Source of the DNA: Alphaproteobacteria bacterium
GTDB lineage: Bacteria > Pseudomonadota > Alphaproteobacteria > Micropepsales > Micropepsaceae
Assembly: GCA_947474645.1 (NCBI GenBank)
Contig: CANJJD010000011.1
Location: 1 to 64,000 of the forward strand
Length of the DNA stretch: 64,000 nt
Reading direction: 5' to 3'
In this document: positions 18,503 through 64,000 of the stretch, piece after piece
Numbering within the stretch: the stretch's first letter is position 1
Layout of the letters: each line of letters opens with the position of its first letter
Position numbers and translations under genes: made by a program
The notes under the pieces: generated by a model
The model's input: the letters and a program-made list of their open reading frames with translations, nothing else
Database searches by the model: none
Told to the model about the DNA's origin: nothing

Positions 18503-20362
18503 ATGAAATCGAATATCCGTCTCTGTGTGATGGCCGCTGCTTTGCTGGGTGGCACCGTGTTGGCCCAAGCCGCGACCGACTGGCCCAATTATGGCAATGA
18601 CGCCGGCGCCCAGCGCTATTCGCCCCTGACCCAGATCACCACGGCCAATGTCTCCCAGCTCAAGGTGGCCTGGACCTATCACATGAAGACGCCGGGCGCG
18701 CCCCGCGTCGCCACCACCCAGACCACGCCTTTGGTGGTGAATAACGTGATGTATCTGGGTTCGCCTTACGGCAAGATCGTCGCGCTCGATCCCGTTACCG
18801 GCAAGGAAATCTGGGTGCTGGACCTGCCGGGCAATGAACGGCCGGCGCCGCGCGGCATGACCTATTGGCCGGGCGACGCCGATCATGCGCCGCGGCTGTT
18901 GTTCGGCACCAATGGCGGCAAGCTGGCGGCGGTGGACGTCAAGACCGGCAAGATGGCCGAAGGTTTTGGCGAGAAGGGCCTGGTCAACCTGCGCACGCCG
19001 GAAATCATGCGCGGCTTCGACAAGAATTACGCTTTGACCTCGCCGCCCGGCGTCTACAAGAACCTGGTGCTGACCGGCGGCTCCAATCCCGAAGATCCGC
19101 GCGGCATCTCGGGCGACGAACGCGCCTGGGATATTCGCACCGGCAAGCTGGTCTGGACTTTCCATGCCGTGCCGCGCGAAGGCGAGTTCGGCAACGACAC
19201 CTGGCCCAAGGATGGCTGGCAGAACCGTTCCGGCGTGAACATCTGGAACATGATCACCATCGACGACAAGCGGGGCATTGCCTATCTGCCCTTCACCGGG
19301 CCGGCCAACGACCGCTGGGGCGGCGACCGCCATGGCGCCAACCTGTTCGGCAACAGCCTGGTGGCGGTGGACGCCAATACCGGCAAGCGGCTGTGGCACT
19401 TCCAGCTTGTGCATCACGAGATCTGGGACCATGACCAGCCCACCCCGCCCATGCTGTTCGACGTCAAGAAGGACGGCAAGACCATTCCCGCCGTGGCGGC
19501 GATGAACAAGTCGGCCTATCTCTTCATCCTCGACCGCGTCACCGGCAAGCCGATCTATCCGGTCAAGGAAGTGCCGGTGCCGCAGAGCACGGCACCCGGC
19601 GAAAAAAGCTGGCCCACCCAGCCGATCCCGGTGACACCGCCGCCGCTGGCCAAGCAGAGCTTCACGGCGGCCACTGACATCGTGACCCTGACGCCGGAAC
19701 TGGAAGCGGTCTGCCGCAAACTGATCACCGACCGTAAGATCCAGGACAGCGTGGCCTTCTCGCCGATCCCCGCGGGCGTGCAGAATGCGCGCTTCCCCGG
19801 CAGCGGCGGCGGCCCCGAATGGGGCGGCGGCGCCTTCGATCCCAAGCTCGGTTATTTCATCGTCAACACCCAGGAGCTGGGCTCGATCGAGGGGCTGGAG
19901 AAAAAGCCCGGCGGCTGGTGGGCATCGGCCTATGGCCCGGACAGCTTCTTCATCAACCCGGACGAAAAGCAGGGTTACATGCCGTGCCATCAGCCGCCCT
20001 GGGGTGATCTGTGGGCGGTGAACGTCAACACCGGCAAGGTCGCCTGGCGCGTCAATCTTGGTGTCACCGACTCCATGCCGGAAGGGAAGAAGAATACCGG
20101 CCGCCCCAACCTGGGTGGGCCGCTCACCACCGGCAGCGGGCTGATCTTCATCGGCGCCACCGATGACAGCCGCTTCCGCGCCTTCGAGACTCGCACCGGC
20201 AAGGAAATCTGGACCCACAAGCTGGACGCATCCGCACACGCCTCGCCGATCACCTACCAGGGCAAGGACGGCAAGCAGTATGTCGCCGTGGTGGCCACCG
20301 GCGGGTCCTTCGTGCACAGCCCCGCGGTAGGCGACAGCCTGGTGGTGTTCGGCCTGCCATAG
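18503..20362 (+). CDS. Secreted PQQ-dependent dehydrogenase, mGDH-like beta-propeller (copy 2)
   Basis: A 619-residue tandem paralogue of the preceding quinoprotein, with its own signal peptide (about residues 1-23, ending VLAQAA). Conserved stretches include NYGNDAGAQRYSPLTQIT, RGMTYWPGD, LWHFQLVHHEIWDHDQPTPP, CHQPPWGDLWAVN and ITYQGKDGKQYVAVVATGG. The substrate-facing loops differ from copy 1, for example the C-terminal GGSFVHSPAVGDSL, suggesting a different sugar or alcohol. Upstream in-frame codons exist, but the ATG at 18503 follows a TTTGGGGAGC ribosome site and opens a clean signal peptide. The gene ends shortly before an intrinsic terminator. Confidence 0.87.
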   Translation: MKSNIRLCVMAAALLGGTVLAQAATDWPNYGNDAGAQRYSPLTQITTANVSQLKVAWTYHMKTPGAPRVATTQTTPLVVNNVMYLGSPYGKIVALDPVTGKEIWVLDLPGNERPAPRGMTYWPGDADHAPRLLFGTNGGKLAAVDVKTGKMAEGFGEKGLVNLRTPEIMRGFDKNYALTSPPGVYKNLVLTGGSNPEDPRGISGDERAWDIRTGKLVWTFHAVPREGEFGNDTWPKDGWQNRSGVNIWNMITIDDKRGIAYLPFTGPANDRWGGDRHGANLFGNSLVAVDANTGKRLWHFQLVHHEIWDHDQPTPPMLFDVKKDGKTIPAVAAMNKSAYLFILDRVTGKPIYPVKEVPVPQSTAPGEKSWPTQPIPVTPPPLAKQSFTAATDIVTLTPELEAVCRKLITDRKIQDSVAFSPIPAGVQNARFPGSGGGPEWGGGAFDPKLGYFIVNTQELGSIEGLEKKPGGWWASAYGPDSFFINPDEKQGYMPCHQPPWGDLWAVNVNTGKVAWRVNLGVTDSMPEGKKNTGRPNLGGPLTTGSGLIFIGATDDSRFRAFETRTGKEIWTHKLDASAHASPITYQGKDGKQYVAVVATGGSFVHSPAVGDSLVVFGLP

Positions 20363-49955: not shown

Positions 49956-51311
49956 TCAGACGACGCCGAAAGCCAGCATGGCGTCTGCGACTTTCTTGAA
50001 GCCGGCGATATTGGCGCCGCGCACATAGTCGACATGGCCATCCTTGTCCTTGCCATATTCCAGGCAGCGGGAATGAATGCCGAGCATGATGTCCTTCAGC
50101 ATTTGCTGAAGCTCTTCTTCCTTCCAGGCGCGGCGGCCGGAGTTCTGGCTCATTTCCAAGCCCGACACGGCGACGCCGCCGGCATTGGCGGCCTTGCCCG
50201 GCGCATACAGAATGCGGGCCTTCTTGAAGACCTCGATGCCGGCCAGATCGGTCGGCATGTTGGCGCCTTCCGACACCGCGATGCAGCCATTCTTGACCAA
50301 GGTCTCGGCGTCCGCGCCGTTCAGCTCGTTCTGGGTGGCGCAGGGCAGGGCGACATCGCACTTGACGCCCCAGGGCCGCGCGCCGCCGCCGGTAAAGGTG
50401 GCGCCCTTGAACTCCTTGACGTACTCGGACATGCGGCCGCGGCGCTTGTTCTTCAGCACCTTCACCCAATCGATCTTTTCCTGGGTGATGCCGTCCGGGT
50501 CATGGATGAAGCCTTCGGAATCCGACAGGGTCAGCACCTTGCCGCCCAACTGCACGACCTTTTCGGCGGCATGGGTGGCGACGTTGCCCGAGCCGGAAAT
50601 GACGGCGGTCTTGCCCGCAACGCTGTTCTTCTTGGCTTCCAGCATGTTCTGCAGGAAGTAGACCGCGCCATAGCCGGTGGCTTCGGTGCGGATCAGGCTG
50701 CCGCCATATTCCAGGCCCTTGCCGGTCAACACGCCGGTGAACTCGTTGGTGATGCGCTTGTACTGGCCGAACATGTAGCCGATCTCGCGGCCGCCCACGC
50801 CGATATCGCCGGCCGGCACGTCAATGTCGGCGCCGACATGACGATACAGCTCGGTCATGAAGGATTGGCAGAAGCGCATCACTTCATGGTCCGACTTGCC
50901 CTTGGGGTTGAAGTTGGAGCCGCCCTTGCCGCCGCCCATGGGCAGGCCGGTCAGGCTGTTCTTGAAGGTCTGTTCGAAGGCCAGGAACTTCAGCACGCTT
51001 TCGGTGACCGACGGGTGGAAGCGGATGCCGCCCTTGTACGGCCCGATGGCATTGTTGTTCTGCACCCGCCAGCCGCGCTGCACGCGAATGTTGTTCTTGT
51101 CGTCTTCCCAGCAGACGCGGAACGAGATCACCCGGTCCGGCTCGGCGATGCGGCGCAGGATCTGATATTCGTGATAGGCGGGCTTGCCCTGGATGAAGTC
51201 GAAGATGTCGTGCGCGGCTTCGTGCACCGCCTGGACGAATTCCGGCTGGCCCGGGTTGCGGCGCTCGACGCCCTTGATGAAGCCGTCCAGGTCAACATGG
51301 TCGTTGGACAT
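49956..51311 (-). CDS. gdhA: NADP-dependent glutamate dehydrogenase
   Basis: A 451-residue hexameric-type glutamate dehydrogenase, of usual length for the NADP-specific bacterial enzyme. FRVCWEDDKNNIRVQRGWRVQ, the GGIRFHPSVTESVLKFLAFEQ substrate loop, LPMGGGKGGSNFNPKGKSD with the catalytic-region lysines, and the SGSGNVATHAAEKV nucleotide loop are all present. It aminates 2-oxoglutarate to glutamate with ammonia. The ribosome site GAGGAAA lies just before ATG 51311. It shares the strand with the downstream acetolactate synthase gene (75-bp gap) and may head that transcript. Confidence 0.93.
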   Translation of the reverse strand: MSNDHVDLDGFIKGVERRNPGQPEFVQAVHEAAHDIFDFIQGKPAYHEYQILRRIAEPDRVISFRVCWEDDKNNIRVQRGWRVQNNNAIGPYKGGIRFHPSVTESVLKFLAFEQTFKNSLTGLPMGGGKGGSNFNPKGKSDHEVMRFCQSFMTELYRHVGADIDVPAGDIGVGGREIGYMFGQYKRITNEFTGVLTGKGLEYGGSLIRTEATGYGAVYFLQNMLEAKKNSVAGKTAVISGSGNVATHAAEKVVQLGGKVLTLSDSEGFIHDPDGITQEKIDWVKVLKNKRRGRMSEYVKEFKGATFTGGGARPWGVKCDVALPCATQNELNGADAETLVKNGCIAVSEGANMPTDLAGIEVFKKARILYAPGKAANAGGVAVSGLEMSQNSGRRAWKEEELQQMLKDIMLGIHSRCLEYGKDKDGHVDYVRGANIAGFKKVADAMLAFGVV

Positions 51312-51729
51312 TGGTATTTCCTCGCTGTTGTGTTGGGATTTTTATGAAGGCGTCATGGCCGCGCGCGCCGGCGCGAAGTGCATGGGAATGCTGGGGGTAG
51401 AGGTGCCGGCCCTGCCGGGCAGCGCCCTGTTTGGCGCATAGATCTGTATCATTGCATGCGCGCCCCGGGATCAGGTTTCCGCAGCCGCTTGGCGCCAGAA
51501 CCTGTTATTTCCGAGGAGCTCCCCAAAACCCCAAAAGAGTAAATCCCGCAGCCCCCGGAGAGTCAACGAAAGGGCCGGCAAATGCCCCGCTTGTGCTTGA
51601 TTTTTAAGCGCTTTGACGGCCGCCCCGTGTCAAGGACTTGTGACAGGCGCGCGTCCCCTTTGGTGACGCCTCGCGTCCCTTGCGCGCTGCTTTCTGCTAT
51701 AGGGGCGCTTGTCCCGTCACGAGGTTCTG
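51312..51729. promoter_or_regulatory. Divergent 418-bp region between gdhA and the SLOG-cyclase gene
   Basis: This is the only gene-free stretch over 300 bp in the window. It must hold the gdhA promoter and that of the cyclase fusion. I see no recognisable riboswitch, sRNA or conserved box; short A/T-rich pieces such as TTGATTTTTAAG (51598-51609) could be promoter elements. GAGG at 51721-51724 is the ribosome site for TTG 51730. Two in-frame upstream codons (TTG 51709, CTG 51727) are less well placed. Confidence 0.4.
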
Positions 51730-54105
51730 TTGGCCCAGACTTCCAATATCCTGCGCGTCGCCGCCATCGGCCATCGTGTGATCTCGCTGAAGACACGGGG
51801 CGCGGTCGCGCGTTCGGTCGGCCATATCCTGGCCGCTATTGCGGGAGGCGCCCAGCGTCCCGAAGGCCTTGAACGGGCGGTGATATCGCCCCTTGCCCAG
51901 GGCGCCGACCAGTTGATCGCCGCCGTGGGGTTGGAACAGGGCTACCGGCTGGAAGCCATCCTGCCGGCGGCGCAGCCCGACTATGAGAAGACGTTCAACC
52001 TGGGCGATCCGGACGAGGAGATCGCTGCCTTCCGGGCGCTGCTGGATACGGCGCGCCAGGGGCTGGGCGCCGAGGAATTGCCCGGCGACCTGAGCCATGA
52101 GGACAGCCGCAACCGCGCCTTCCTGTCTTGCGCCGACGCGATGATCCGCAAAAGCGACATGGTGCTGGCGATCCTGTCGGCCGACCGCTGGGATTCCCAG
52201 ACCGGCAAGACCGCCCGTGATGCCGTCGCGCTGGGCTTGCCGCTGCTGATGATTGATCCGGCCATGCCGGGCCAGCCCCTGCTTCACCGCAAGGAGGGCA
52301 TCGTTCCGGCCACCGACGAGGCCATTGCCGAGATGGTGCGCGCGCTGCTGGACCGCCGCTTTCCCAATGACGTGGCCCGCGCCAAGGCGGCGCTGGCGGC
52401 GGGCGATTTTCTCACCGCGCTGGATCTGTTGCGCCATGCGCCGGACGATCCGGACCTGGAGCGCCGCACCGAGCGCGACTACCTGCTGGTGCTGGCGCTG
52501 GCGCGGGCCGGCGCACCGCGCCTGGGACTGGAGCGTTTCCGGGAGCGGCTGGCGCGCAGCCCCCTGGAGAAATTGCCGGCCGACATGGCGCGCGACATTG
52601 CCGCGCTGGAGGCACGCTGCCTGAAAGATATCGCGCTGGAAGAGCCTGTGGAGGCGCGGGCCGAGGCGTTCCTCCTGGCCGCCGATGCCTATGAAACCGT
52701 CTATCGCCGCTTCGGCGGCTATTATCCCCTGATCAATGCCGCCACCCTGTTCCTGCTCGCCGGCGAGCAGGAGACGGCGGAAAAGCTGGCGCGCCAGACG
52801 CTCAAGGAAGTGGCGGATTCAAAGGATTACTGGGGCCTCGCGACCCGCGCCGAAGCGCTGCTGGTGCTGGGAAAAAGCGACGAGGTGGGCCCCGTCCTGA
52901 GCCATGCCAGCGCGATGGGCGTGTCGGCGTCCGCCATGGCCTCCACCAAGAAACAGTTGCTGGCGGTCTGTGCCGCGCGGGGCTCCGCCGCCTGCCTGCT
53001 GGATGATCTCAAGGTGCCGTCGGTGATCTATTATTGCGGCCACCGCAACCTGGACGATGCGGATGCCGCAAAGCTGCAGATCGCCGCCCAGATGGCGCTG
53101 CTCAATACCGGCTTTGCCTATGGTTCGCTGTGCAGCGGCGGCGACATATTGATGGCGGAAGCGGCGCTGGCGGCAGGAATAGAACTGCATGTCGTGCTTC
53201 CCTACCGCGCCGAGGATTTCGTCAAGAGCTCGGTGTCGCCAGGCTGGGAGGGGCGCTTTGCCGCCTGCATGGCCAGGGCCCGCACCGTTTCCTATGTCAT
53301 CGACAATGACGTGCTGCAGCATGACTGCGTCAAAGCCCTGTGCAGCAGCCACGCCATGGGCATGGCGCGCCGTCATGCCGATGCCCTGGCGACCGGCGTC
53401 TGCCAATTGGCGATCTGGAACGGCGCGCCCGCCAAGGCGGTGGCCACCGCGGCGGCCGAGGTAGCCAAATGGTCGGCGCTGGGGCTTCCCAGCGTCATCA
53501 TCCCGCCAACCGGCGCGCCTTACCGGCTGACCGCGCCCACCCCGCCGCCGGACGATCACATCAGCCCGGACGTGGTGCCGCGCGCCTTTTTGTTCGCGGA
53601 TGTGCGGGGTTTCAGCAAGCTGCCCGAGCGGCACATGGAGCTTTTCGTCCATACCTACATGGCCGGACTGGGCGAGGCGATCGAGCGTTTCGCGGGCGAT
53701 ATCGATTACCGCGCCACCGCCGGCGACGGGATTTTCCTGGTCTTCCGTACCCCTGCGCATGCGGCGGCCTGCGCCATTGCCATGCAGGATTGCTCGGAAT
53801 CCTTTGACCGGGACCGCCACGGCATCGAGGTGCATCTGCAACTGCGGATTGCGGTCCATTACGGCCCGTGCCATCCGCTGCACGATCCCATCCTGAAGAA
53901 AGATTCTTTCGCAGGCCGGGAAATCATTCGCGCCGCCCGCATCGAGCCGGTCACCCCACCCGGCGAAATCTATGTCACCGAGCAGCTTGCCAGCGCGCTG
54001 TTCCTGGCGGGCACCAAGGACTGGCGCTGCGACTATGTCGGCATCCAGCCCACGGCCAAGGGCTTCGGCAATTTCCGCATGTATTCCATCAAGCCGCACG
54101 GCTAG
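51730..54105 (+). CDS. SLOG-like / TRAFs-binding-like / class III nucleotide cyclase fusion protein
   Basis: A 791-residue soluble protein starting at TTG 51730 (GAGG 5 nt upstream). An N-terminal SLOG-type Rossmannoid (VAAIGHRVIS, SPLAQGADQLIAAVGLEQGY, then ADRWDSQTGKTARDA) precedes a helical region at about 210-410 with YRRFGGYYPLINAATLFLLAGEQE, typical of TRAFs-binding (MAP3K/DUF4071) repeats. A second SLOG-like unit (YYCGHRNLDDADA, GFAYGSLCSGGDILMAEAAL) leads to a C-terminal class III cyclase: metal Asp624 in FADVRGFS, Asp666 in TAGDGIF and Arg737 in RAARIEPV. The transition-state Asn position is Ile733. It probably makes or senses a nucleotide signal; product unknown. Confidence 0.8.
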   Translation: MAQTSNILRVAAIGHRVISLKTRGAVARSVGHILAAIAGGAQRPEGLERAVISPLAQGADQLIAAVGLEQGYRLEAILPAAQPDYEKTFNLGDPDEEIAAFRALLDTARQGLGAEELPGDLSHEDSRNRAFLSCADAMIRKSDMVLAILSADRWDSQTGKTARDAVALGLPLLMIDPAMPGQPLLHRKEGIVPATDEAIAEMVRALLDRRFPNDVARAKAALAAGDFLTALDLLRHAPDDPDLERRTERDYLLVLALARAGAPRLGLERFRERLARSPLEKLPADMARDIAALEARCLKDIALEEPVEARAEAFLLAADAYETVYRRFGGYYPLINAATLFLLAGEQETAEKLARQTLKEVADSKDYWGLATRAEALLVLGKSDEVGPVLSHASAMGVSASAMASTKKQLLAVCAARGSAACLLDDLKVPSVIYYCGHRNLDDADAAKLQIAAQMALLNTGFAYGSLCSGGDILMAEAALAAGIELHVVLPYRAEDFVKSSVSPGWEGRFAACMARARTVSYVIDNDVLQHDCVKALCSSHAMGMARRHADALATGVCQLAIWNGAPAKAVATAAAEVAKWSALGLPSVIIPPTGAPYRLTAPTPPPDDHISPDVVPRAFLFADVRGFSKLPERHMELFVHTYMAGLGEAIERFAGDIDYRATAGDGIFLVFRTPAHAAACAIAMQDCSESFDRDRHGIEVHLQLRIAVHYGPCHPLHDPILKKDSFAGREIIRAARIEPVTPPGEIYVTEQLASALFLAGTKDWRCDYVGIQPTAKGFGNFRMYSIKPHG

Positions 54106-54246: not shown

Positions 54247-55599
54247 GTGACGGGCATTGGGCAGGGGGAGTTTGCGCGCGCCTTTGGCTGGACGCTGCTG
54301 CTCGCCGTGCTTTTCGCCAATCCCGCCGCCGCGGCCAGTGCGCCGGGCACCCATGAAGGCGTCGCCTCCTGCGGCGGGTCCACCTGCCATGGCCGCCTGG
54401 CGCCCACCGGCAAGACCGTGCGGCAGAACGAACTCATCACCTGGCAGGACACCACGTCGGCCGCCGGTTCGCACAGCCAGGCCTGGCAAGTGCTCACCCG
54501 TTCGCGCGCGCAAGGCATCGCCCAGCGCCTGGGACTGGGGCGCGCCGAGAACGCCAAGGACTGTCTGGGTTGTCATGCCGGGCCCGCAGCGGCGCGCGGT
54601 TCCAAGTATCAGGTTTCCGACGGCGTCGGCTGCGAGACCTGTCATGGCGGCGCCGGCGGCTGGCTGGTGAGCCATTACGCCGTGAACAGCACCCATGCCG
54701 CCAATGTGAAAAACGGCATGACGGCGCTGGACGATCCGCGCACCCGCGCCAATCTGTGCCTGGATTGCCATTTCGGCAGCGCCAAGCCCGGCCAGTTCGT
54801 CACCCACAAGATGATGGCAGCCGGTCATCCGCGCGTGTCGTTCGAACTCGACCTCTACAGCGCCTTGCAGCGCCATTATGATTTCGACGCCGATTATGTG
54901 AAGCGCAAGCCGCTGGCCAGCGGCATCAAGTTCTGGGCGGTTGGCCAGGCGCTGGCGGTGGAGCGGCAGCTCAGCCTCTATGGCGACGGCGTGCACACCA
55001 ATGAAGGCGCCTTCCCGGAATTCTATTTCTTCGATTGCCAGAGCTGCCACCGCCGCATTTCCGACGAACCCAATGCGGCGCTGACCGCCGAGGCCAATCC
55101 GGCGCGTCCGCTGCCGCCGGGCACGCCACCTTTCAATGACGAAAACATGATCATGCTGTCGGCCATCGCGCGTGTCGCGGCCCCGGGCGAAGGCGCCAGC
55201 TTCGATGCGGCGGCGCGCAGCTTTCATACCGCCATGGCCCAGAACCATGTCACGACGGCCGCGGCGTCCCAGCTTGCGGGCGCGGCCCGCGCGCTGGCCA
55301 ATGCGCTGGCCACCCACACCTTCAACCGCGGCGAGACTTTTGCCGCGCTGGAAGCGGTGCTGAACGGGGCGGCGGCGCGCTATACCGATTACCAGGGCGG
55401 CGCCCAGGCGGTGATGGCCGCCGACACGCTGCTCAATGCGCTGGTGGCGCAAGGCCATGTCAATCGCGCAAACGCCGAAGGCGTGCGCCCACAGATCAAC
55501 CGGCTTTACGCCGCGGTGCGTGATACCAATGCCTGGCGCCCGGCGGAATTTCGCGACGCGATCCGGCAACTGGCCGGCGCGGTGGGGAGACTGAAATGA
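54247..55599 (+). CDS. Five-haem cytochrome c554-type periplasmic protein (one CX4CH motif)
   Basis: A 450-residue secreted multihaem cytochrome. A signal sequence (about residues 1-30) is followed by five haem motifs: CGGSTCH (C42-H48, CX4CH), CLGCH (C106), CETCH (C129), CLDCH (C171) and CQSCH (C264). The arrangement resembles cytochrome c554/c-prime proteins, which shuttle electrons in the periplasm. Residues 300-450 are haem-free and helical. It begins at GTG 54247 with an AGGGGG ribosome site and overlaps the next gene by 4 nt. It is the first gene of a four-gene porin-cytochrome-like operon and probably its periplasmic electron carrier. Confidence 0.85.
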   Translation: MTGIGQGEFARAFGWTLLLAVLFANPAAAASAPGTHEGVASCGGSTCHGRLAPTGKTVRQNELITWQDTTSAAGSHSQAWQVLTRSRAQGIAQRLGLGRAENAKDCLGCHAGPAAARGSKYQVSDGVGCETCHGGAGGWLVSHYAVNSTHAANVKNGMTALDDPRTRANLCLDCHFGSAKPGQFVTHKMMAAGHPRVSFELDLYSALQRHYDFDADYVKRKPLASGIKFWAVGQALAVERQLSLYGDGVHTNEGAFPEFYFFDCQSCHRRISDEPNAALTAEANPARPLPPGTPPFNDENMIMLSAIARVAAPGEGASFDAAARSFHTAMAQNHVTTAAASQLAGAARALANALATHTFNRGETFAALEAVLNGAAARYTDYQGGAQAVMAADTLLNALVAQGHVNRANAEGVRPQINRLYAAVRDTNAWRPAEFRDAIRQLAGAVGRLK

Positions 55600-57629
55600 T
55601 TTCGCGTATGCGTCCGTTGCTGAGCATGATGTTGAGCAGCCTTCTGGTCTTGAGCGCCTGCGGCAAGAATGACGGCAGCGCCAGCTCCAACACCAGCGCC
55701 ACCAATTCCACGCCCAGCCCGGCCGCCGCCAGCACCGCCGCCACCGGCAGCACCAGCGGCGGCGCCACCACCACTCCCGCCACCAGCCTGTTTAACGTGC
55801 CGGACGCGCAGAACCTGACCGTCGCCGATGTGCAGAAGATCATTTCTCGCGCCGTGGCCGAAGCCAGCGCGCAGGGCAAGCCGGCGGCGATCTCGGTGGT
55901 CGACCGGGTCGGCAACGTCCTGGCCGTTTACACCATGACCGGCGCGCCGGCGAACACCACATTGCGCGCCGCGCCGATCCCCGCCAACAACACCGACCTG
56001 GAAGGCCTGTCGGTGCCGGCCGCAGGCGCCGCCATCGCCAAGGCGATCACCGGCGCCTATCTGTCGAGCGGCGGCAACGCCTTTTCGACCCGCACCGCCA
56101 GCGAGATCGTGCAGCAATTCTTCCCGCCGACCGCCGCGATCACGCCCGGCCTGGAAGGTGGCCCGCTGTTCGGCGTGCAGTTCAGCCAGTTGCCCTGCTC
56201 GGACCTGGCCTCCCGCTTCAATGCCGCGGGCGGCCCCGGCGCCTTTATCGGCCCCAAACGCTCGCCGCTGGGCCTGGCGGCCGATCCGGGCGGCTTTCCC
56301 CTCTACAAGAACGGCGTGCTGGTGGGCGGCGTCGGCGTGATGGCCGATGGCGATTACGGTTTCGACACCGACATCTCCAATACCGACAATGACGTGGACG
56401 AGAATATCGCCTTCGCCGCCACCACCGATTTTGCGGCGCCTTCCACCATCACCGCCAACCGGATTCTGCTGGACGGCACGTCGCTACGCTACAGCGACGC
56501 AACCGCTTCCACCTTGAAGTCCAGTCCCGCTGCGGCGCCCGGTTTCTCCACCGCCGGCGCGGTCGGCAGCCTGACGGTGGTGACCGGCTACTTCGCCGGC
56601 GCCATCATTGACGGCCAGGCCTATGGCACGGAAAACTCGGGCATCCGCAAGGCCTCCGCCGCGGAGTTCAACAATCTGGACGCCTTCATCCTGACCAATG
56701 GCGCGGGCAACAACCGCTATCCCGCCATCGCGGGCAGCGACGCCGCCGATGTCGGCACCGCGCTCAGCGCCGCCGAGACCGCCGCCGTACTGGAAGAAGC
56801 CTTCAAGATCATGGCCCGCTCCCGCGCCGCCATCCGCCAGCCGCTGGACAGCCGGGCCCAGGTCTCGGTCTCGGTGGTGGATACGCGCGGCAAGATCCTG
56901 GGCGTGGTGCGCGCCCCCGATGCGCCCATCTTCGGCATTGACGTGTCGCTGCAAAAGGCGCGCACCGCGGCCTTCTTCTCCAACAAGAACGCCGCGTCCG
57001 ACCTGAACGGCGATCCATCCGCCGATGTGCGCACCTTCATTCCGGCAGCCCGCACCTTCCTGAATGACACCACTGCCTTCACCGGCGCCACCGCTTTTTC
57101 CTCGCGCTCTATCGGCAACCTGGCGCGGCCCTTCTTCCCGGACGGGAATTTCAACAATCCCAACGGCCCCTTCTCGCGGCCGCTGCCCAAATGGAGCCCG
57201 CTCTCCACCGGCCTGCAATCGGCGCTGGTCCTCACCAACCTGGCCCAGCATGTGAATTTCGTGAGCGGCGCCTCGGCCACCGACACGCCGCAGCGCTGCA
57301 GCTTCATTCCCGATGCCGCGGCCGGCCAGAACCGGCTGCAGAACGGCATCCAGATATTCTCCGGCGGCGTACCGATCTATCGCGGCAGCACCCTGGTGGG
57401 CGCGGTGGGCACGTCGGGCGACGGCATTGACCAGGACGACATGGTCTCGTTCCTGGGCCTGTTCAATGGCGGCGCGCGCGTCACCGGCATCGGCGAGGCG
57501 TCGAACTTCATCCGCTCCGACAATGTGATTGTCCAGATCAACGGCCAGTCGGTGCGGCTGCGGTACGTCAACTGTCCCTTCGCGCCGTTCCTCGATACCA
57601 ACGACCAGAATGTGTGCCAGGGCAAATGA
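55596..57629 (+). CDS. Lipoprotein with two GlcG/HbpS-type (DUF336) domains
   Basis: A 677-residue predicted lipoprotein (lipobox LVLSAC, Cys22) with a Ser/Thr/Ala-rich linker to about residue 65. Two GlcG/HbpS-family haem-binding-like domains follow. The first has LTVADVQKIISRAVAEASAQ and ISVVDRVGNVLAVYTM; the second, after about residue 405, has ETAAVLEEAFKIMARSRAAI and VSVVDTRGKILGVVRAPDA. Each has a long insertion. The family binds haem or small ligands in other bacteria. Position between a five-haem cytochrome and an outer-membrane barrel gene, with 4-nt overlaps on both sides, suggests a role in haem delivery or complex assembly. Confidence 0.75.
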   Translation: MISRMRPLLSMMLSSLLVLSACGKNDGSASSNTSATNSTPSPAAASTAATGSTSGGATTTPATSLFNVPDAQNLTVADVQKIISRAVAEASAQGKPAAISVVDRVGNVLAVYTMTGAPANTTLRAAPIPANNTDLEGLSVPAAGAAIAKAITGAYLSSGGNAFSTRTASEIVQQFFPPTAAITPGLEGGPLFGVQFSQLPCSDLASRFNAAGGPGAFIGPKRSPLGLAADPGGFPLYKNGVLVGGVGVMADGDYGFDTDISNTDNDVDENIAFAATTDFAAPSTITANRILLDGTSLRYSDATASTLKSSPAAAPGFSTAGAVGSLTVVTGYFAGAIIDGQAYGTENSGIRKASAAEFNNLDAFILTNGAGNNRYPAIAGSDAADVGTALSAAETAAVLEEAFKIMARSRAAIRQPLDSRAQVSVSVVDTRGKILGVVRAPDAPIFGIDVSLQKARTAAFFSNKNAASDLNGDPSADVRTFIPAARTFLNDTTAFTGATAFSSRSIGNLARPFFPDGNFNNPNGPFSRPLPKWSPLSTGLQSALVLTNLAQHVNFVSGASATDTPQRCSFIPDAAAGQNRLQNGIQIFSGGVPIYRGSTLVGAVGTSGDGIDQDDMVSFLGLFNGGARVTGIGEASNFIRSDNVIVQINGQSVRLRYVNCPFAPFLDTNDQNVCQGK

Positions 57630-59518
57630 GAAAACTCCGCGCGATCCTGCTGACGACTTCACTGCTGGCGGCCTTGCCCGCAGCTGCCCAGGAACAGACC
57701 AGGCCTGAGGCGGATAGCCCCAATGCCCGGGCGGCCGCGGCGCTGGAGGCGCCGCCGGCGCTGGTGCTCGATCCGATCAAGCCTCCCCTCCGGCTGGCGC
57801 AGAAGGACGAAGCGCCCAGGACGCAGGACTCCACCCCGGGCCGGAATATTCCGGGCCGCATGCGCAATTACGAATTGCCGGTGCTGCAGAACAATCCGGG
57901 CGCGGTGGAAGCGCCGCCGCCCGAGCCTTTCCCCACCAATAGCTGGGTGCCGGTGCCGGACCGCTGGCGCATCGTGGACGCGCTGGGCGTGGGCGGGCAG
58001 TGGTGGGACCCCTACAACCAGAACGTCATCAAGGGCGACCGGCCCATCCTGGGCACCGAAGACTGGTTCGTGGACCTGATCGGCGTGTCCGACAGCGTGG
58101 CGGAGCTGCGCTCCTTCCCCACCCCGGTCAGCATCCAGACCAGCCAGCGTCCCGGCAGCCTGGACGTGTTCGGCCAGGCCGATAGCGCGCTCTATACCCA
58201 GACCTTCATCGCCGGCGCCAGCATCTACAAGGGCTCCACTGCCTTCAAGCCGCCGGAAATCGAATTCCGATTCGCCGTGGCGATGAACGTCAACTATGCC
58301 CAGGTGTCGGAACGCCGCGTGCTGTCGGTGGACCCGGGCAAGCCCACCCATCGCCTGGACGGGCTGGTGGGCCTGCAGGAAGCGTTCGTGGATTATCACA
58401 TCCGCAATGTGGATGAGCGCTACGACTTCGATTCCATCCGCGTCGGCATCCAGCCCTTCACCACTGACTTCCGGGGTTTCCTGTTCCAGGACAACCAGCT
58501 TGGCGTGCGCCTGTTCGGCGACCGCGACAACAATCGCTACCAGTACAATCTGGGCTTCTTCGCGCGGCTGGAGAAGGACACCAATTCGGGCCTGAACGAC
58601 ATCACCCAGATGGTGCGCAACGACTATGTCATGGTGGCGAATGTCTATGCCCAGGACCTGCCGGTGCCCGGTTTCACCTCCGAGTTGACCGCGATCTACA
58701 ACATGAACCGCGAAGCCGACCGCATTCACATCGACTTTAACGGCTTTCCCGCGCGCCCGGCGCTGCTGGGCGATATCCGCCCCCGCGAGTATGACGTGGT
58801 CTATCTGGGCTATTCGGGCGACGGCCATTGGGACGACATCAACCTGACCGTCACCGGCTATGGCGCGCTGGGCGAGGACCGCAACAACATCTTCACCAGC
58901 CGGCCGGCGGACATTTCCGCCTTCTTCCTGGCCGCCGAGCCTTCGGTGGATTTCGACTGGATCCGGCTGCGGCTGTCGGCGCTCTATGCCTCGGGCGACG
59001 ACAATCCTTACGACGATCATGAAGGCGGCTTCGACGCCATCTTCGAAAATCCGCAATTCGCCGGTTCCGACACCAGCTACTGGATCCGCCAGTCGGTGCC
59101 GTTCGCCGGCGGCGGCCGCGCCGTCTTCCTGAGCAGCCGCAACGGCATCCTCAACGATCTGCGTTCGTCCAAGGAAGAAGGCCAGTCCAACTTCAACAAT
59201 CCCGGCACCATGCTGCTGGGCGGTGGCGCGGACTTTGACGTGCTGCCCGAGCTTCGCGTTTCCGCCAATATCAACCATCTGTGGTTCTCGGACACCACCG
59301 TGGTGCAGGCGCTGCGCCAGGAAGGCTCCATCTCGCAGGATCTGGGCTGGGATACTTCGCTGGCGCTGACCTATCGTCCCTGGCTGACCCAGAATGTCGT
59401 GTTCCGGGCGTCGGGCGCGGTGCTGTCGCCGGGGCCCGGCTTTAGCGACCTGCTCACCAACTCCAGTCATGACGGGCAGTATTATTCCATGCTGTTCAAC
59501 GCAATTCTGACATTCTAG
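57626..59518 (+). CDS. Predicted outer-membrane beta-barrel protein of the cytochrome operon
   Basis: A 630-residue exported protein (ATG 57626 overlaps the previous stop) with a signal peptide (about residues 1-21, ending AALPAAAQ). A roughly 90-residue Pro-rich N-terminal segment precedes a long amphipathic-strand region (for example VDYHIRNVDERYDFDSIRVGI, YQYNLGFFARLEKDTNSG, INLTVTGYGALGED, LRLSALYASGDDNPY) and a C-terminal Phe (MLFNAILTF), a hallmark of outer-membrane barrels. There is no CXXCH. In MtrCAB-like systems such a barrel sheaths a multihaem cytochrome. It is not clearly homologous to MtrB by eye. Confidence 0.7.
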   Translation: MRKLRAILLTTSLLAALPAAAQEQTRPEADSPNARAAAALEAPPALVLDPIKPPLRLAQKDEAPRTQDSTPGRNIPGRMRNYELPVLQNNPGAVEAPPPEPFPTNSWVPVPDRWRIVDALGVGGQWWDPYNQNVIKGDRPILGTEDWFVDLIGVSDSVAELRSFPTPVSIQTSQRPGSLDVFGQADSALYTQTFIAGASIYKGSTAFKPPEIEFRFAVAMNVNYAQVSERRVLSVDPGKPTHRLDGLVGLQEAFVDYHIRNVDERYDFDSIRVGIQPFTTDFRGFLFQDNQLGVRLFGDRDNNRYQYNLGFFARLEKDTNSGLNDITQMVRNDYVMVANVYAQDLPVPGFTSELTAIYNMNREADRIHIDFNGFPARPALLGDIRPREYDVVYLGYSGDGHWDDINLTVTGYGALGEDRNNIFTSRPADISAFFLAAEPSVDFDWIRLRLSALYASGDDNPYDDHEGGFDAIFENPQFAGSDTSYWIRQSVPFAGGGRAVFLSSRNGILNDLRSSKEEGQSNFNNPGTMLLGGGADFDVLPELRVSANINHLWFSDTTVVQALRQEGSISQDLGWDTSLALTYRPWLTQNVVFRASGAVLSPGPGFSDLLTNSSHDGQYYSMLFNAILTF

Positions 59519-59523
59519 GGCGC

Positions 59524-62500
59524 ATGACGGCGGGCTGGCACAAGAAGGCGCTTCTGCTGGCGGCGATGGCCCTGCTGGCGGGCGCGGCCACGACAAGGCT
59601 GCTGGCCAACGATGAAGAAGCCGCCATTGAGCGCCACTATGCCAAGACGCCGGACGCCCCGTTCGGCCAGACGCAAGCCGAGGCCGACGCCAAGAGCGCG
59701 GGCTGCATTTCCTGCCACAGCGCGTCGGATGCGCCGTCCATGCACGACAACCAGGCGGTGCTGCTGGGCTGCGCCGACTGCCATGGCGGCGACGCCACGG
59801 TGAAGGCGGCCGCGGGGCTTCCCAAGACCGATCCGCAATATGCCGCCGTGCGCGACAAGGCGCATGTGCTGCCGCGCTATCCCCATAGCTGGCATTTTCC
59901 CAGCTCCGCCAACCCGAAGGAAAGCTACACGCTGCTCAACCGCGAGGCGCCCGAATATGTGCGCTTCGTCAACCCCTCGGATTACCGGGTGGTGCGCGAA
60001 TCCTGCGGCGCCTGCCATCTCCAGCAGATCCAGGCTTCGGAACGCTCCCTGATGGCCACGGGCGCCATGTTCTATGAAGGCGCCTCCTATAATAACGGCA
60101 TCGTGCCGCTGAAGGGCGGCTACGAAAATGTGCTGGGCATACCCGGCCTGGGCATCGGCGAGGCCTATACCCGCACCGGCGAGGCCGCCAAGGTCCTGTC
60201 GCCCGGCGCGCCAGCCGGCACCGTCACCGAAGCGCAGAAAAATCGCGGCGCGCTGGCGGCGCTGATCCCGCTGCCGGCCTGGCAGGTTGTGCCGCCCGGC
60301 GACATCTTCCGCGTGTTCGAGCGCGGCGGCCGTAATATCAGCTCGCTGTTCCCGGAAATCGGCCTGCCCAGTCCCACCGGCTCCATCCAGCGGCTGGAAG
60401 AGCCGGGCCGTCCCGACCTCAAGCAGTCCAACCGCGGCCCCGGCACCGGGCTGCGCGTCGCCATTCCGATCCTCAACATCCACAAGACGCGCCTCAACGA
60501 TCCCTTCATGTGGTTCATGGGCACCAACGACCAGCCGGGCGATTACCGCCAGTCCGGCTGCGCCGGATGCCATGTCATCTATGCCAACAGCCGCGAGCCG
60601 CGCGAAAGTTCAGTCTATGCCCAGCACGGCCGGGACGGAAAAAGCCAGACGGTGGATCCCACCATCAACAAGGAGGAATCCGGCCACCCCATCAAGCACC
60701 AGTTCACCCGCGCCATTCCCACCGCCCAGTGCATGAACTGCCACATGCACCAGCCCAACATGTTCCTGAACACCTATCTTGGTTACACCATGTGGGATTA
60801 CGAGGCCGATGCGCCGTCGATGTGGCCCAAGGAGCAGAAATATCCGACCTCCGAGGAGATGCGCAAAGTCCTGGACCGCAATCCGGAAGGCGCGGCCCCC
60901 AAGGGCAAATGGGCCGATGTGGATTTCCTGCGCAATGTCTATGACCTGAACGACAAGCTGAAGGACACCCAGTTCGCCGACTATCACGGCCATGGCTGGA
61001 ATTTCCGCGCCATCTTCAAGCGCGACCGCGATGGCAATTTGCTGGACAAGGACGGCAAGGTGGTGGCCAACGACGATCCGGAAAAGTGGCGCAAGAAGGG
61101 CGTGGGCAAGTTCGCCCCCATCGGCGTCAATCCCGGCAAGGCGGTGCACATGATGGACATCCATGCCGAAAAGGGCATGCAGTGTTCGGATTGCCATTTT
61201 GCCCAGGACAGCCATGGCAGCGGGCTGATCATGGGCGAGGTCGCCAACGCCGTGGAAATCGGCTGCAAGGATTGCCACGGCACGGTTTCCGCCTTGCCGA
61301 CCCTGAAGACGTCAGGCCCCGCCGCGCCGCCGGGCGGCACCGACCTTCTGCAACTGCGCAACCAGGACGGCAGCCGCCGCTTTGCCTGGTCGGACGAGGG
61401 CGGGCGCCGGGTGCTGACCCAGACCTCGTCGCTGGATTCGTCGCTGAAATGGACCGTGTCGCTGGTCAAGGACACGGTGGATCCCACTAGCCCCAACTAC
61501 AATGAGAAGGAAGCGCGCGCCAAGCTGATGGGCCGCACCGCCGGCGACGGCAAGCAGATGCAATGGGGCCCGGGCGTGAAAGAGGCCAATCTGGCGCACA
61601 AGGACAGCGAGATGGCCTGCTTCACCTGCCACACCTCCTGGACCACATCCTGCGGCGGCTGCCATCTGCCGATCGAGGCCAACTGGAAAACCGACAGCCA
61701 CAAGTATGACGGCATGGAGGCGCGCAACTACGCCACCTACAATCCGCAAGTGGCGCGCGACGACATGTTCCAGCTCGGCGTGCATTCCACCATCAAGGGC
61801 AACACCATCGCCCCGGTGCGCTCAAGCTCGGCGCTGGTGCTGAGCTCCACCAACATCAACCGCGACCGCATCTATGTGCAGCAGCCGCCCATCGCGGCCA
61901 ACGGGTTCTCCAGCCAGGCCTTTGCGCCGCATTTCCCGCACACGGTTCGCACCACCGAGACCAAGACCTGCAGCGATTGCCATGTCTCGGCCGCCAATGA
62001 CAACAATGCCATCATGGCGCAGCTCCTGCTGCTGGGCACCAACTTCGTCAACTTTGTCGGCCTCAATGCCTATACCGGCCTGGAAGGCGGCATCGAGGCG
62101 GTGCGCGTCACCGAATGGGATGAGCCGCAGGCGGTGTTCGGTTCCTACCTGCAGAAATTCGCCTATCCCGACTATTACAAGGCCCATGTCGAGCGCAACA
62201 AGCGCGAGCTGGTGAACTGGCGGCGCGGCGATCTCTTCGGCAAGGGTGACACCAATGTCGAGGACATCTTCAACGTCACCCATTCCACGCCCGATGCGGT
62301 GCGCTGCCTGCAATTGCGCGGTGAGTATCTCTATACCGCGCAAGGCCGCGGCGGCTTCCAGGTGCTGGACGTGGCCAGCGTCGCCAACAAGGACATCTCC
62401 CAGAGGATCATCACCGCGCCCTTCTCACCGCTGGGCCAGCGGATTCGCGTGTCCTCGAAGAATGCCACCTGCATGGCGCTGCCGACCGGCCAGTCCATCG

Positions 62501-63540
62501 CGCCTGAGCGCAACACGCCGCAGATGCAGAAGTTCAACCAGGAGCAGCCCTTCCACCCCATCTACAATTACGCCTTCATCACCGACGCGGAAGAAGGCCT
62601 GATCCTGGTGGACATCAACACTTTCACCGACGGCAATCCGCGCAACAACAATATCCGCCGCGCCCTGACCTGGAATCCCGATCGCGTGCTGGACGGCGCG
62701 CGCCACATCACCCTGGGCGGTTCCTACGCCTATATCGCCACCCCGCGCGGTCTGGTGGTGGTGGATTTGAAGGATCCCATGAAGCCGCGCGTGGCGGCGC
62801 AAGTGGCCCTGCCCGACATGCGGGCCTCGGCGCTGCAGTTCCGCTATCTGTTCGTCACCGATCGCAACGGGCTGGAAGTTCTGGACGTCACCAAAATGGA
62901 CAAGCCGCATGTGATCGAAGGCGCCCGCGTCCCGCTGGACGATGCCCGCCGCGTCTATCTGGCGCGCACCTATGCCTATGTCGCGGCCGGCAAGGACGGG
63001 CTGGTGATCCTGGACATCAAGAATCCGGAAAAGCCCAAATCCTATTGGCACAAGCCGTTTGAAAATGCCGACAGTCAGGACGTAATTGTTGGCTCCACCA
63101 ACGCCTCGCTGTTCGCCTATGTCGCCGACGGCAAGAACGGCGTGAAGGTACTGCAGCTCACCAGCCCCGAAAGCCAGCCCAACTTCTACGGCTTCTCGCC
63201 GCCGCCCAAGCCCGAACTGATCGCCTGGGCCAAGACCGCGACGCCGGCGCTGGCCTTGTCCAAGGGCCTGGACCGTGACCGCGCCGTGGACGAGACCGGC
63301 AACCAGATCGCCGTCTTCGGGCGGTTGGGCTCGCGCCCCTTCCGCCGCGACGAGATGGAAAAGTTCTTCGTGGACTGGAAGGGCCAGGAATATCGCGTCA
63401 GCGACGCGCCGGTGAAGGCCGATTTCATCGGATTGCCGGACCAGTCCAAGCCCCCGGTGCAGGCGGAGGACGGCGACAAGAAATCCGGCGCGCCGCGCCG
63501 CGACGCCGTCGCGCGTCCCAGGAAGATGGCGCGCAACTAG
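59524..63540 (+). CDS. Giant decahaem cytochrome c fused to LVIVD-type beta-propeller repeats
   Basis: A 1338-residue exported protein (signal peptide about residues 1-29). Ten CXXCH motifs start at C61, C83, C161, C346, C403, C554, C581, C699, C710 and C816; residues 30-820 are therefore a decahaem module with long spacers. After about 910 come repeating LVIVD-type blades (DAVRCLQLRGEYLYTAQGRG, ALQFRYLFVTDRNGLEVLDV, YAYVAAGKDGLVILDIKN, LFAYVADGKNGVKVLQL). The tail past 1240 is charged. The propeller may hold the protein to a partner or surface. It is the last gene of the operon; its stop overlaps the convergent phosphodiesterase gene. Confidence 0.85.
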   Translation: MTAGWHKKALLLAAMALLAGAATTRLLANDEEAAIERHYAKTPDAPFGQTQAEADAKSAGCISCHSASDAPSMHDNQAVLLGCADCHGGDATVKAAAGLPKTDPQYAAVRDKAHVLPRYPHSWHFPSSANPKESYTLLNREAPEYVRFVNPSDYRVVRESCGACHLQQIQASERSLMATGAMFYEGASYNNGIVPLKGGYENVLGIPGLGIGEAYTRTGEAAKVLSPGAPAGTVTEAQKNRGALAALIPLPAWQVVPPGDIFRVFERGGRNISSLFPEIGLPSPTGSIQRLEEPGRPDLKQSNRGPGTGLRVAIPILNIHKTRLNDPFMWFMGTNDQPGDYRQSGCAGCHVIYANSREPRESSVYAQHGRDGKSQTVDPTINKEESGHPIKHQFTRAIPTAQCMNCHMHQPNMFLNTYLGYTMWDYEADAPSMWPKEQKYPTSEEMRKVLDRNPEGAAPKGKWADVDFLRNVYDLNDKLKDTQFADYHGHGWNFRAIFKRDRDGNLLDKDGKVVANDDPEKWRKKGVGKFAPIGVNPGKAVHMMDIHAEKGMQCSDCHFAQDSHGSGLIMGEVANAVEIGCKDCHGTVSALPTLKTSGPAAPPGGTDLLQLRNQDGSRRFAWSDEGGRRVLTQTSSLDSSLKWTVSLVKDTVDPTSPNYNEKEARAKLMGRTAGDGKQMQWGPGVKEANLAHKDSEMACFTCHTSWTTSCGGCHLPIEANWKTDSHKYDGMEARNYATYNPQVARDDMFQLGVHSTIKGNTIAPVRSSSALVLSSTNINRDRIYVQQPPIAANGFSSQAFAPHFPHTVRTTETKTCSDCHVSAANDNNAIMAQLLLLGTNFVNFVGLNAYTGLEGGIEAVRVTEWDEPQAVFGSYLQKFAYPDYYKAHVERNKRELVNWRRGDLFGKGDTNVEDIFNVTHSTPDAVRCLQLRGEYLYTAQGRGGFQVLDVASVANKDISQRIITAPFSPLGQRIRVSSKNATCMALPTGQSIAPERNTPQMQKFNQEQPFHPIYNYAFITDAEEGLILVDINTFTDGNPRNNNIRRALTWNPDRVLDGARHITLGGSYAYIATPRGLVVVDLKDPMKPRVAAQVALPDMRASALQFRYLFVTDRNGLEVLDVTKMDKPHVIEGARVPLDDARRVYLARTYAYVAAGKDGLVILDIKNPEKPKSYWHKPFENADSQDVIVGSTNASLFAYVADGKNGVKVLQLTSPESQPNFYGFSPPPKPELIAWAKTATPALALSKGLDRDRAVDETGNQIAVFGRLGSRPFRRDEMEKFFVDWKGQEYRVSDAPVKADFIGLPDQSKPPVQAEDGDKKSGAPRRDAVARPRKMARN

Positions 63541-64000
63541 TCCTTGATGAAGGGCACTTCGTAGGTCACCGCCGCCGGGAAATCGCCGGCCGGGCAGGCA
63601 TGCATCACCATTTCGCCCTTGTCCCACAACAGCAGCATGAAACCGGGCGCGCGCTCCGTCAGCAGTTCGCGATGGTCGGGCACGCGAAGATCAATGGGGC
63701 TGAGATCCAGGGCAAGCTGGATGGAGGTGGCGGTGGAAACCTGCACCAGGTGCCCGGCGAAAACGCCGCTGAAGGCGCGGTGCATGTGGCCGCAGACCAG
63801 GCCCTTGATCTGGCTCTGGCCGCGAATGACATCGGCCAGGCGGATTTTCCAGGGCGCATCCGCCGGCTCGTCCATCCAGACGATGCCGCTGGCGATGGGC
63901 GGGTGATGCAGCGCCAGCAGGGTGGGGGTGTCCGGCGCCTCCGCCAGGGTGCGCTTCAGCCAGGCGGCGCGCTTCTCGCAGAAGCCGCCATGTTCCTTGC
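63537..64000 (-). CDS. CpdA/Icc-like metallophosphoesterase, C-terminal part (5' end beyond window)
   Basis: The minus-strand C-terminal 153 codons of a metallophosphoesterase. LALHHPPIASGI carries the metal His pair and GLVCGHMHRAFSGVF carries the GHxH motif, as in CpdA/Icc cAMP phosphodiesterases and related class III cyclic nucleotide phosphodiesterases. The N-terminal metal ligands lie outside the window, so specificity is unproven. It is convergent with the decahaem gene with overlapping stops. A nucleotide cyclase domain is encoded 10 kb away, which makes a signalling link possible but not shown. Confidence 0.78.
   Translation of the reverse strand, partial: KEHGGFCEKRAAWLKRTLAEAPDTPTLLALHHPPIASGIVWMDEPADAPWKIRLADVIRGQSQIKGLVCGHMHRAFSGVFAGHLVQVSTATSIQLALDLSPIDLRVPDHRELLTERAPGFMLLLWDKGEMVMHACPAGDFPAAVTYEVPFIKD

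Follow-up and report, generated by a model that had tools for sequence, protein, structure and literature searches.

The stretch of alphaproteobacterial DNA analysed here, 64,000 nucleotides long and called the window below, forms the first 64 kb of a 78.8-kb contig (C11, which shares its numbering), and near its end lies an operon of four genes on the + strand. A pentahaem c554-type cytochrome, predicted to be periplasmic (54247..55599), overlaps by 4 nt a lipoprotein with two HbpS/GlcG-like domains (55596..57629), which in turn overlaps by 4 nt the gene of an outer-membrane barrel (57626..59518), and after a 5-nt gap follows a decahaem cytochrome with a C-terminal LVIVD beta-propeller (59524..63540). 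The second overlap goes with the start chosen for the barrel: its longest reading frame spans 57614-59518, and we preferred the in-frame ATG at 57626, which gives a 4-nt ATGA overlap. The positions, strand and junctions proposed in a sequence-only reading of the window were thus reproduced. The operon is real, conserved and widespread, and it meets a second, convergent operon that encodes putative electron-input proteins. We consider it somewhat probable that the eight genes form a transenvelope electron conduit, which would lead electrons of NAD(P)H as far as the outer membrane and be gated by cyclic nucleotides.

Relatives were collected by scanning named genomes with an alignment of the decahaem protein, which gave at least 562 confirmed relatives from at least 592 pattern matches. 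The best 80 of these relatives were kept as named loci, so that this sample leans to close relatives. By title the 80 loci are alphaproteobacterial, except one labelled only Pseudomonadota; they belong chiefly to Sphingomonadales and Caulobacterales, with two from Parvularculaceae. Haem-motif counts given below refer to complete reading frames within these 80 loci.

The c554-type protein matched the Pfam family Cytochrome_C554 with 39.3 bits (cut-off 20.8) and, among solved structures, cytochrome c554 (1bvb, E 6.9e-7). Its haem pattern of four CXXCH motifs and one CX4CH was fixed in all 61 complete homologues. In the lipoprotein, PF03928 scored 88.6 bits (cut-off 25) over four stretches, and Cys22 of the lipobox was conserved in 65 of 65 aligned sequences; a simple lipobox pattern run on unaligned frames matched only 59 of 69. 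The protein of the window has a single histidine in total, which was retained in 92% of the 65 sequences.

For the barrel, an AlphaFold model built on a 16-sequence alignment (mean pLDDT 66.4, pTM 0.66) gave 18 strands after a low-confidence N-terminal extension of 146 residues. The nearest solved fold was AlgE (5d5d, Z 25.7, root-mean-square deviation 2.9, 357 residues aligned), and Occ channels came second (4frt, Z 24.6, deviation 3.0, 332 aligned). Pfam gave no family even at E<=1, and a profile search of solved structures gave no match; no MtrB-type chain was found among the 50 Foldseek matches listed for the model, a result that excludes nothing.

The decahaem protein carries ten CXXCH motifs between residues 61 and 820, and the number was ten in all 72 complete homologues. 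LVIVD (PF08309) scored 74.9 bits (cut-off 20.2). In the AlphaFold model of residues 30-1225 only the C-terminal beta-propeller was well modelled, and the nearest fold was the YVTN propeller 1l0q (Z 25.3, deviation 2.3, 255 aligned). A profile search of solved structures found no match for this protein, and among the Foldseek matches listed no multihaem chain aligned to the haem part, the matches covering the propeller, which again excludes nothing. Across 85 sequences we found 13 invariant histidines outside the CXXCH motifs. These suffice for bis-His ligation of ten haems and would therefore fit electron transfer rather than catalysis. The identities first read from the letters, a five-haem c554, a double GlcG/HbpS lipoprotein, an outer-membrane-type barrel and a decahaem-LVIVD fusion, all held under these searches and models.

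The convergent operon and its linkage

The second operon lies on the - strand, overlaps the stop of the first and runs partly beyond the end of the window. Its gene nearest the decahaem gene (63537-64361, with the 3' part 63537..64000 inside the window) encodes a metallophosphoesterase, whose closest curated families are the cyclic-nucleotide phosphodiesterases SpdA and CpdA, with scores below their cut-offs. The metal-site residues were conserved in 49 of 49 homologues of this phosphodiesterase-like protein, and the gene was present in 59 of the 80 named loci.

Next comes a decahaem cytochrome with an FHA domain and one transmembrane segment (contig C11 64457-66358, -), the only protein matched by the Cytochrome_C7 model. 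Its homologues have one transmembrane segment in 57 of 60 cases and Gly31-Arg32 of the FHA domain in 60 of 60, and ten CXXCH motifs were present in all 45 complete ones. It is followed by a cytochrome b561-like membrane protein (66363-67244, -), for which the Pfam match was below cut-off. The residues W94/H98/H112 and W267/H271/H285 were invariant in nine sequences, and the full pattern WX3HX13H...SGXXG...WX3HX13H was present in 38 of 41 complete frames; the misses were those of loci L018, L078 and L080, with frames of 207, 331 and 388 aa. The two WX3HX13H motifs of such proteins have been read as two b haems (He 2017, PMC5566968), so that the whole unit would carry 27 haems, 25 of type c by motif and two of type b by homology.

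The last protein (67248-69911, -; 887 aa) combines a pyridine-nucleotide flavin reductase domain binding FAD, two cyclic-nucleotide-binding domains and an iron-sulphur ferredoxin domain, as assigned by Pfam. Its N-terminus resembles NAD(P)H reductases of the YpdA/Bdr type (7a7b, E 4.9e-32), with TIGR04018 at 100 bits against a cut-off of 339.9. PF00027 scored 99.7 bits over two stretches, and both phosphate-binding cassettes keep their residues, E441/R450 and E622/R631, invariant in nine diverse sequences. Fer4_11 (pfam13247) scored 45.1 bits (cut-off 26.2), and 16 cysteines, invariant in the same number of diverse sequences, fit four [4Fe-4S] clusters. At L157 (6843-10202) and L158 (3046-6420), from another class of the phylum, the FAD protein and the cytochrome b are fused in one frame of 1120-1125 aa.

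Conservation of the first operon was counted in the 60 named loci whose upstream sequence reaches 5.8 kb or more. The order c554-HbpS-barrel-decahaem on one strand was found in 58 of them, so the expectation that the four families would travel together was confirmed among close relatives; the exceptions were L059 and L062, the former of which does give a tblastn match to the HbpS gene. Megaplasmids carry the operon too, in Sphingobium as well as in Sphingopyxis. All four of its genes bear the annotation 'hypothetical' and no other on the Sphingobium TomTYG64 plasmid. The plasmid of Sphingopyxis indica, the replicon searched in that species, has the operon and lacks the input module.

To the input genes the operon is tied most clearly in a sample of 289 genomes drawn evenly from the class. 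The decahaem protein was found in 20 of them (19 whole and a fragment in G042, six genomes with weak partial matches being excluded) and the FAD protein in 26 (25 whole and G042 in pieces, excluding 219 genomes with only weaker, partial matches). All 20 decahaem genomes had the FAD protein, against 6 of the 269 others, and in no genome did the decahaem protein occur without it (Fisher p 7e-26, a value that ignores shared ancestry). In each of the 19 whole pairs the two genes share a contig, at a distance below 8 kb. In G060, one of the six genomes with the FAD protein only, the sequence breaks off inside the HbpS gene. Fifteen loci were fetched from this sample, nine of them with the decahaem protein and all nine from other families; in every one of the nine the input genes were contiguous and codirectional with HbpS-barrel-decahaem, as in L117, where the order is c554-FAD-cytb-FHA-HbpS-barrel-decahaem. 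Downstream sequence of 7.5 kb or more (the flank ends at 10 kb) was available for 59 named loci. In 37 of them the locus holds FHA cytochrome, cytochrome b and FAD protein together; in another ten the phosphodiesterase is present and the input module is incomplete or missing.

The FAD protein was present in every decahaem genome searched for it, so the four genes are not a self-contained system, and we reject that possibility. The unit proposed by the sequence-only reading therefore stands for close relatives, as the outer half of a larger one whose input half lies past the window end.

In samples from the whole phylum, full-length decahaem matches were found in five of 299 genomes, all Alphaproteobacteria, with weak partial matches in nine others, and the membrane protein in ten of 298, five of which were the same decahaem genomes. 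G458, from another class of this phylum, has the FAD protein, cytochrome b, FHA cytochrome, HbpS and barrel genes; its contig stops 333 bp past the barrel frame, and against the decahaem profile the assembly yielded nothing beyond a weak match in the propeller. Among the genomes examined, the full unit was seen only in Alphaproteobacteria.

Relation to described porin-cytochrome systems

The unit belongs with the porin-cytochrome systems, as a variant whose input, by NAD(P)H and cyclic nucleotides, is unusual. Its inner half is closest to PCC4, a cluster predicted to comprise a porin, cytochromes with 4, 5 and 10 motifs, an inner membrane protein and an iron-sulphur protein (He 2017, PMC5566968). 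Both have an inner membrane protein marked by SGXXG and a pair of WX3HX13H motifs, an iron-sulphur protein with pfam13247 (subgroup II), which in our unit is part of the FAD protein, and cytochromes with ten haems and with four CXXCH motifs. Compared with PCC4 by its description, the set reported here has cytochromes of 4(+1), 10 and another 10 haems instead of 4, 5 and 10; in place of the 5-haem protein it contains the HbpS lipoprotein, an apparently different barrel and the extra decahaem-LVIVD protein.

Locus L124, from another alphaproteobacterium with the FAD protein and without the decahaem protein, links the two arrangements. Its order is FAD-cytb-FHA (10 CXXCH)-c554 (4 CXXCH + CX4CH)-5-CXXCH protein-barrel-like protein, the last assigned by eye and without a family match, and it fits the 4/5/10 pattern of PCC4. 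The same cytochromes, arranged differently, are found in L126. Between the barrels of the window and of L124 there was no significant blastp match, and the profile score was -0.5 bits. It seems that the inner module is shared with PCC4-like clusters while the outer module is exchanged. These loci also suggest that the '4-haem' cytochrome of PCC4 is a pentahaem protein once CX4CH is counted. A second c554-type gene (19139-19999) follows the PCC4-like barrel in L124.

The outer half resembles 'group 1' of metagenome-assembled genomes from the Sterkfontein cave, described briefly in 2026. There a decahaem gene of 4-5 kb neighbours the gene of a porin with some 20 strands, and in 7 of 11 cases a ferredoxin-NADP reductase is close by (PMC13264449). 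The decahaem gene of the window measures 4,017 bp, its barrel has 18 predicted strands and the FAD protein is 3.7 kb away, so that identity with group 1 is plausible as far as the description goes. The porin-cytochrome genomes of that study were mostly not alphaproteobacterial (21 of 36 were Gammaproteobacteria or Acidobacteriota), which speaks against identity, given the range of the full unit here. Among the papers that the literature searches listed, subscription papers and supplements aside, these two bear directly on the system. Their texts make no mention of cyclic-nucleotide gating, FHA, HbpS or LVIVD; the supplementary domain drawings of He 2017 may show some of them. In view of PCC4 and group 1, the claim that the system was undescribed proved too strong.

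MtrCAB, PioAB and MtoAB share with the unit the general idea of haems and an outer-membrane barrel. The barrel gave no match to the MtrB/PioB family PF11854, nor did a search of the whole genome with this model, for which our control set also scored only below cut-off. The MtrA/DmsE-type model TIGR03508 gave 12.3 bits for c554 and 11.1 bits for the decahaem protein, against a cut-off of 192.2, and no match to the FHA cytochrome at E 0.001. A NapC/CymA-family protein (PF03264), the type of quinol donor used by the Shewanella form of MtrCAB, had no match in the source genome, which is 99.6% complete. MtrB has more strands than the 18 predicted for the window barrel. The outcomes of PF11854, TIGR03508 and NapC/CymA rule out membership in MtrCAB, from which the gene set had been said to differ. 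PCC3 was rejected as well: the inner membrane protein has the same motifs, whereas the cytochromes of PCC3 have medians of 34 and 21 haems (He 2017, PMC5566968). An ombB-type barrel, for which no specific model was run, was judged absent from the lack of any Pfam family at E 1 and of any NCBIfam match close to a cut-off, the one match being DESULF_POR1 with 11.8 bits against 250.

Proposed electron path, acceptor and alternatives

All signs in the eight genes point to electron transfer, the role expected from the first reading of the operon; the path, its direction, gating, docking and acceptor are what we infer from them. NAD(P)H would reduce the cytoplasmic flavoprotein and, through it, four [4Fe-4S] clusters, and the membrane protein with its two b haems would move the electrons through the inner membrane. 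The FHA decahaem cytochrome, anchored in the inner membrane with its FHA domain in the cytoplasm, and then the pentahaem c554 may span the periplasm, and the decahaem-propeller protein may dock at the 18-strand barrel together with the HbpS lipoprotein. The simplest chain would thus be NAD(P)H, FAD, four Fe-S clusters, two haems b, ten haems c of the FHA protein, five of c554 and ten of the decahaem-LVIVD protein at the barrel. The two built-in binding domains could gate the flavoprotein, with the nucleotide level set by the neighbouring phosphodiesterase and, in some loci, by a nearby cyclase. This regulation is suggested by the two domains, by the kept metal site of the phosphodiesterase-like protein and by a CHASE2-cyclase-type catalytic domain found in 26 of the 80 named loci (checked with Pfam on one).

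The lack of a NapC/CymA match fits entry of electrons independent of quinone, and a haem-copper oxidase subunit I is present in the source genome. Tentatively, the input half may be an NAD(P)H oxidoreductase that works without quinone under the gating of cyclic nucleotides, comparable to eukaryotic NOX or ferric reductases, with 25 c haems leading to the surface. It would open a further route into extracellular electron transfer in many sphingomonad and caulobacter genomes, by which aerobes could, when needed, discharge NAD(P)H electrons at the surface or use them for signalling; this is possible rather than probable.

He 2017 (PMC5566968) instead supposed that membrane proteins of this kind trade electrons with quinone, which may hold here too. 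Several observations weigh against the gated conduit as drawn here. The serine of the FHA ligand site was mostly substituted, being present in 13 of 60 homologues, and a loose cassette pattern found two copies in 21 and one in 14 of 35 FAD proteins. In the other-family loci c554 was in the stretch in five of nine, not seen in four and never directly before HbpS; its placement elsewhere makes the exact four-gene order a feature of closer relatives. Neither the phosphodiesterase nor any input gene was within the locus in 12 of the 59 named loci, and those genomes have the FAD protein elsewhere in all 12 cases (10 full-length, 2 partial or in pieces). In G515 roughly 670 kb separate the cytochrome b gene from the decahaem gene. 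The inner module was also found without the decahaem protein, in the six class genomes and in other classes.

As to where the electrons leave the chain, we give about an even chance to an acceptor located on the outer membrane or outside it. Barrel and HbpS lipoprotein adjoin the decahaem protein in 58 of 60 named loci and in 9 of 9 from other families, which argues for surface transfer, and two-partner secretion genes near the unit in 27 of the 80 loci were counted on the same side. On the other side, the barrel is of the size of AlgE and Occ channels, small for an MtrA-like plug, and the ten haem motifs of the decahaem protein are spread along about 830 residues, which does not suit a plug of the Mtr kind. 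The haem half of its model is too poor to place the haems (mean pLDDT 51.5). T2SSL was not found in a search with this one marker, and none of 77 decahaem sequences had a lipobox.

These last two points, with the fold likeness of the barrel to AlgE and Occ/OprD solute channels, speak for a periplasmic reductase fed from the cytoplasm, like that of the Geobacter ext clusters, in which the barrel would move a solute, the decahaem-propeller protein would reduce it and no wire would pass the outer membrane. The decahaem part shows a weak yet significant relation to ExtM (68.5 bits, E 3.5e-19), and both systems combine a porin with a b cytochrome and a number of multihaem cytochromes; according to PMC5877670, loss of the porin ExtI lowers selenite and tellurite reduction and leaves Fe(III) reduction unaffected. 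However, the score is far under the 800-bit cut-off of the ExtM equivalog NF040943, which rules out membership in Ext, no rhodanese was among the Pfam matches of the eight genes, and the input is NAD(P)H/FAD instead of Rieske/b. Moreover, no catalytic site was identified, the 13 invariant histidines fit bis-His transfer haems, and fold likeness by itself shows no function. We regard reduction of a substrate brought through the barrel as rather unlikely, and the Ext-like arrangement as a whole as slightly less likely than that.

He 2017 proposed for PCC3 and PCC4 that electrons flow inward; in our unit such oxidation of a reduced donor outside the cell, be it Fe(II), Mn(II) or another, is improbable. 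The inner module is indeed common with PCC4, and He 2017 links both clusters to Fe/Mn habitats and reports a Mn(II)-oxidising Erythrobacter with PCC3 (PMC5566968). However, the cytoplasmic end of the unit is an NAD(P)H/FAD/Fe-S protein. Electron transfer from Fe(II) or Mn(II) to NAD(P)+ is energetically uphill, and no proton-driven step appears to be visible in the unit. A surface redox sensor feeding back on second messengers is very improbable: three signalling-type domains (FHA, cyclic-nucleotide, HbpS-like) in one unit would suit it, as would the neighbouring phosphodiesterase and the cyclase present at some loci, but 27 haems, by our reading, and four Fe-S clusters far exceed the needs of sensing, and the FHA ligand site is partly degenerate.

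If the gated conduit is true, it concerns Sphingobium, Novosphingobium, Sphingomonas, Erythrobacter, Phenylobacterium and Brevundimonas, genera among the named decahaem relatives that are investigated for oxygen respiration and the breakdown of pollutants. The laboratory sphingomonad Sphingobium herbicidovorans MH is one carrier of the unit. Such aerobes would hold a complete wire from cytosol to outer membrane that bypasses the quinone pool and is seemingly switched by a second messenger. The electron source of PCC4-type conduits also becomes a directly testable question through one flavoprotein.

Neighbouring genes

Upstream of c554 lies a gene (51709..54105, +) for a TPR-S/class III nucleotide cyclase-like protein of 798 aa (PF20308, 34.4 bits; PF00211, 27.6 bits). 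It is a possible source of the cyclic nucleotide, or it may act in signalling or conflict and have nothing to do with the unit. Its cyclase domain had no match in the 80 named loci, a further point against the gated conduit, and its membership in the unit is therefore not established. The glutamate dehydrogenase gene at 49956-51311 (-) is 82% identical to a gene of the Sphingopyxis plasmid that adjoins c554 there and is annotated as NADP-specific gdhA, and a homologue was near the unit in 23 of the 80 loci. The two-partner secretion genes, for a ShlB-type transporter and a large exoprotein, recur upstream, for instance in L009 (1512-9665), L024 (2-4655) and L025 (1750-4382).

On the far side of the input genes, CcmF begins at contig C11 70022, 110 bp from the FAD gene, and opens a set of cytochrome c maturation genes (70022-74149, +) in which a CcmH/CycH-type TPR protein and, by eye, a CcmG/DsbE-like frame follow; CcmF was found in 4 of the 80 named loci. 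Beyond it, on the - strand (74146-78111), lies a type IV secretion cluster with a VirB11-like ATPase (PF00437) and then VirB10-, VirB9- and VirB6-like frames assigned by eye. A decahaem match was found in only 5 of 37 genomes of the genus, and together with this cluster beside the unit it makes mobility of the unit possible.

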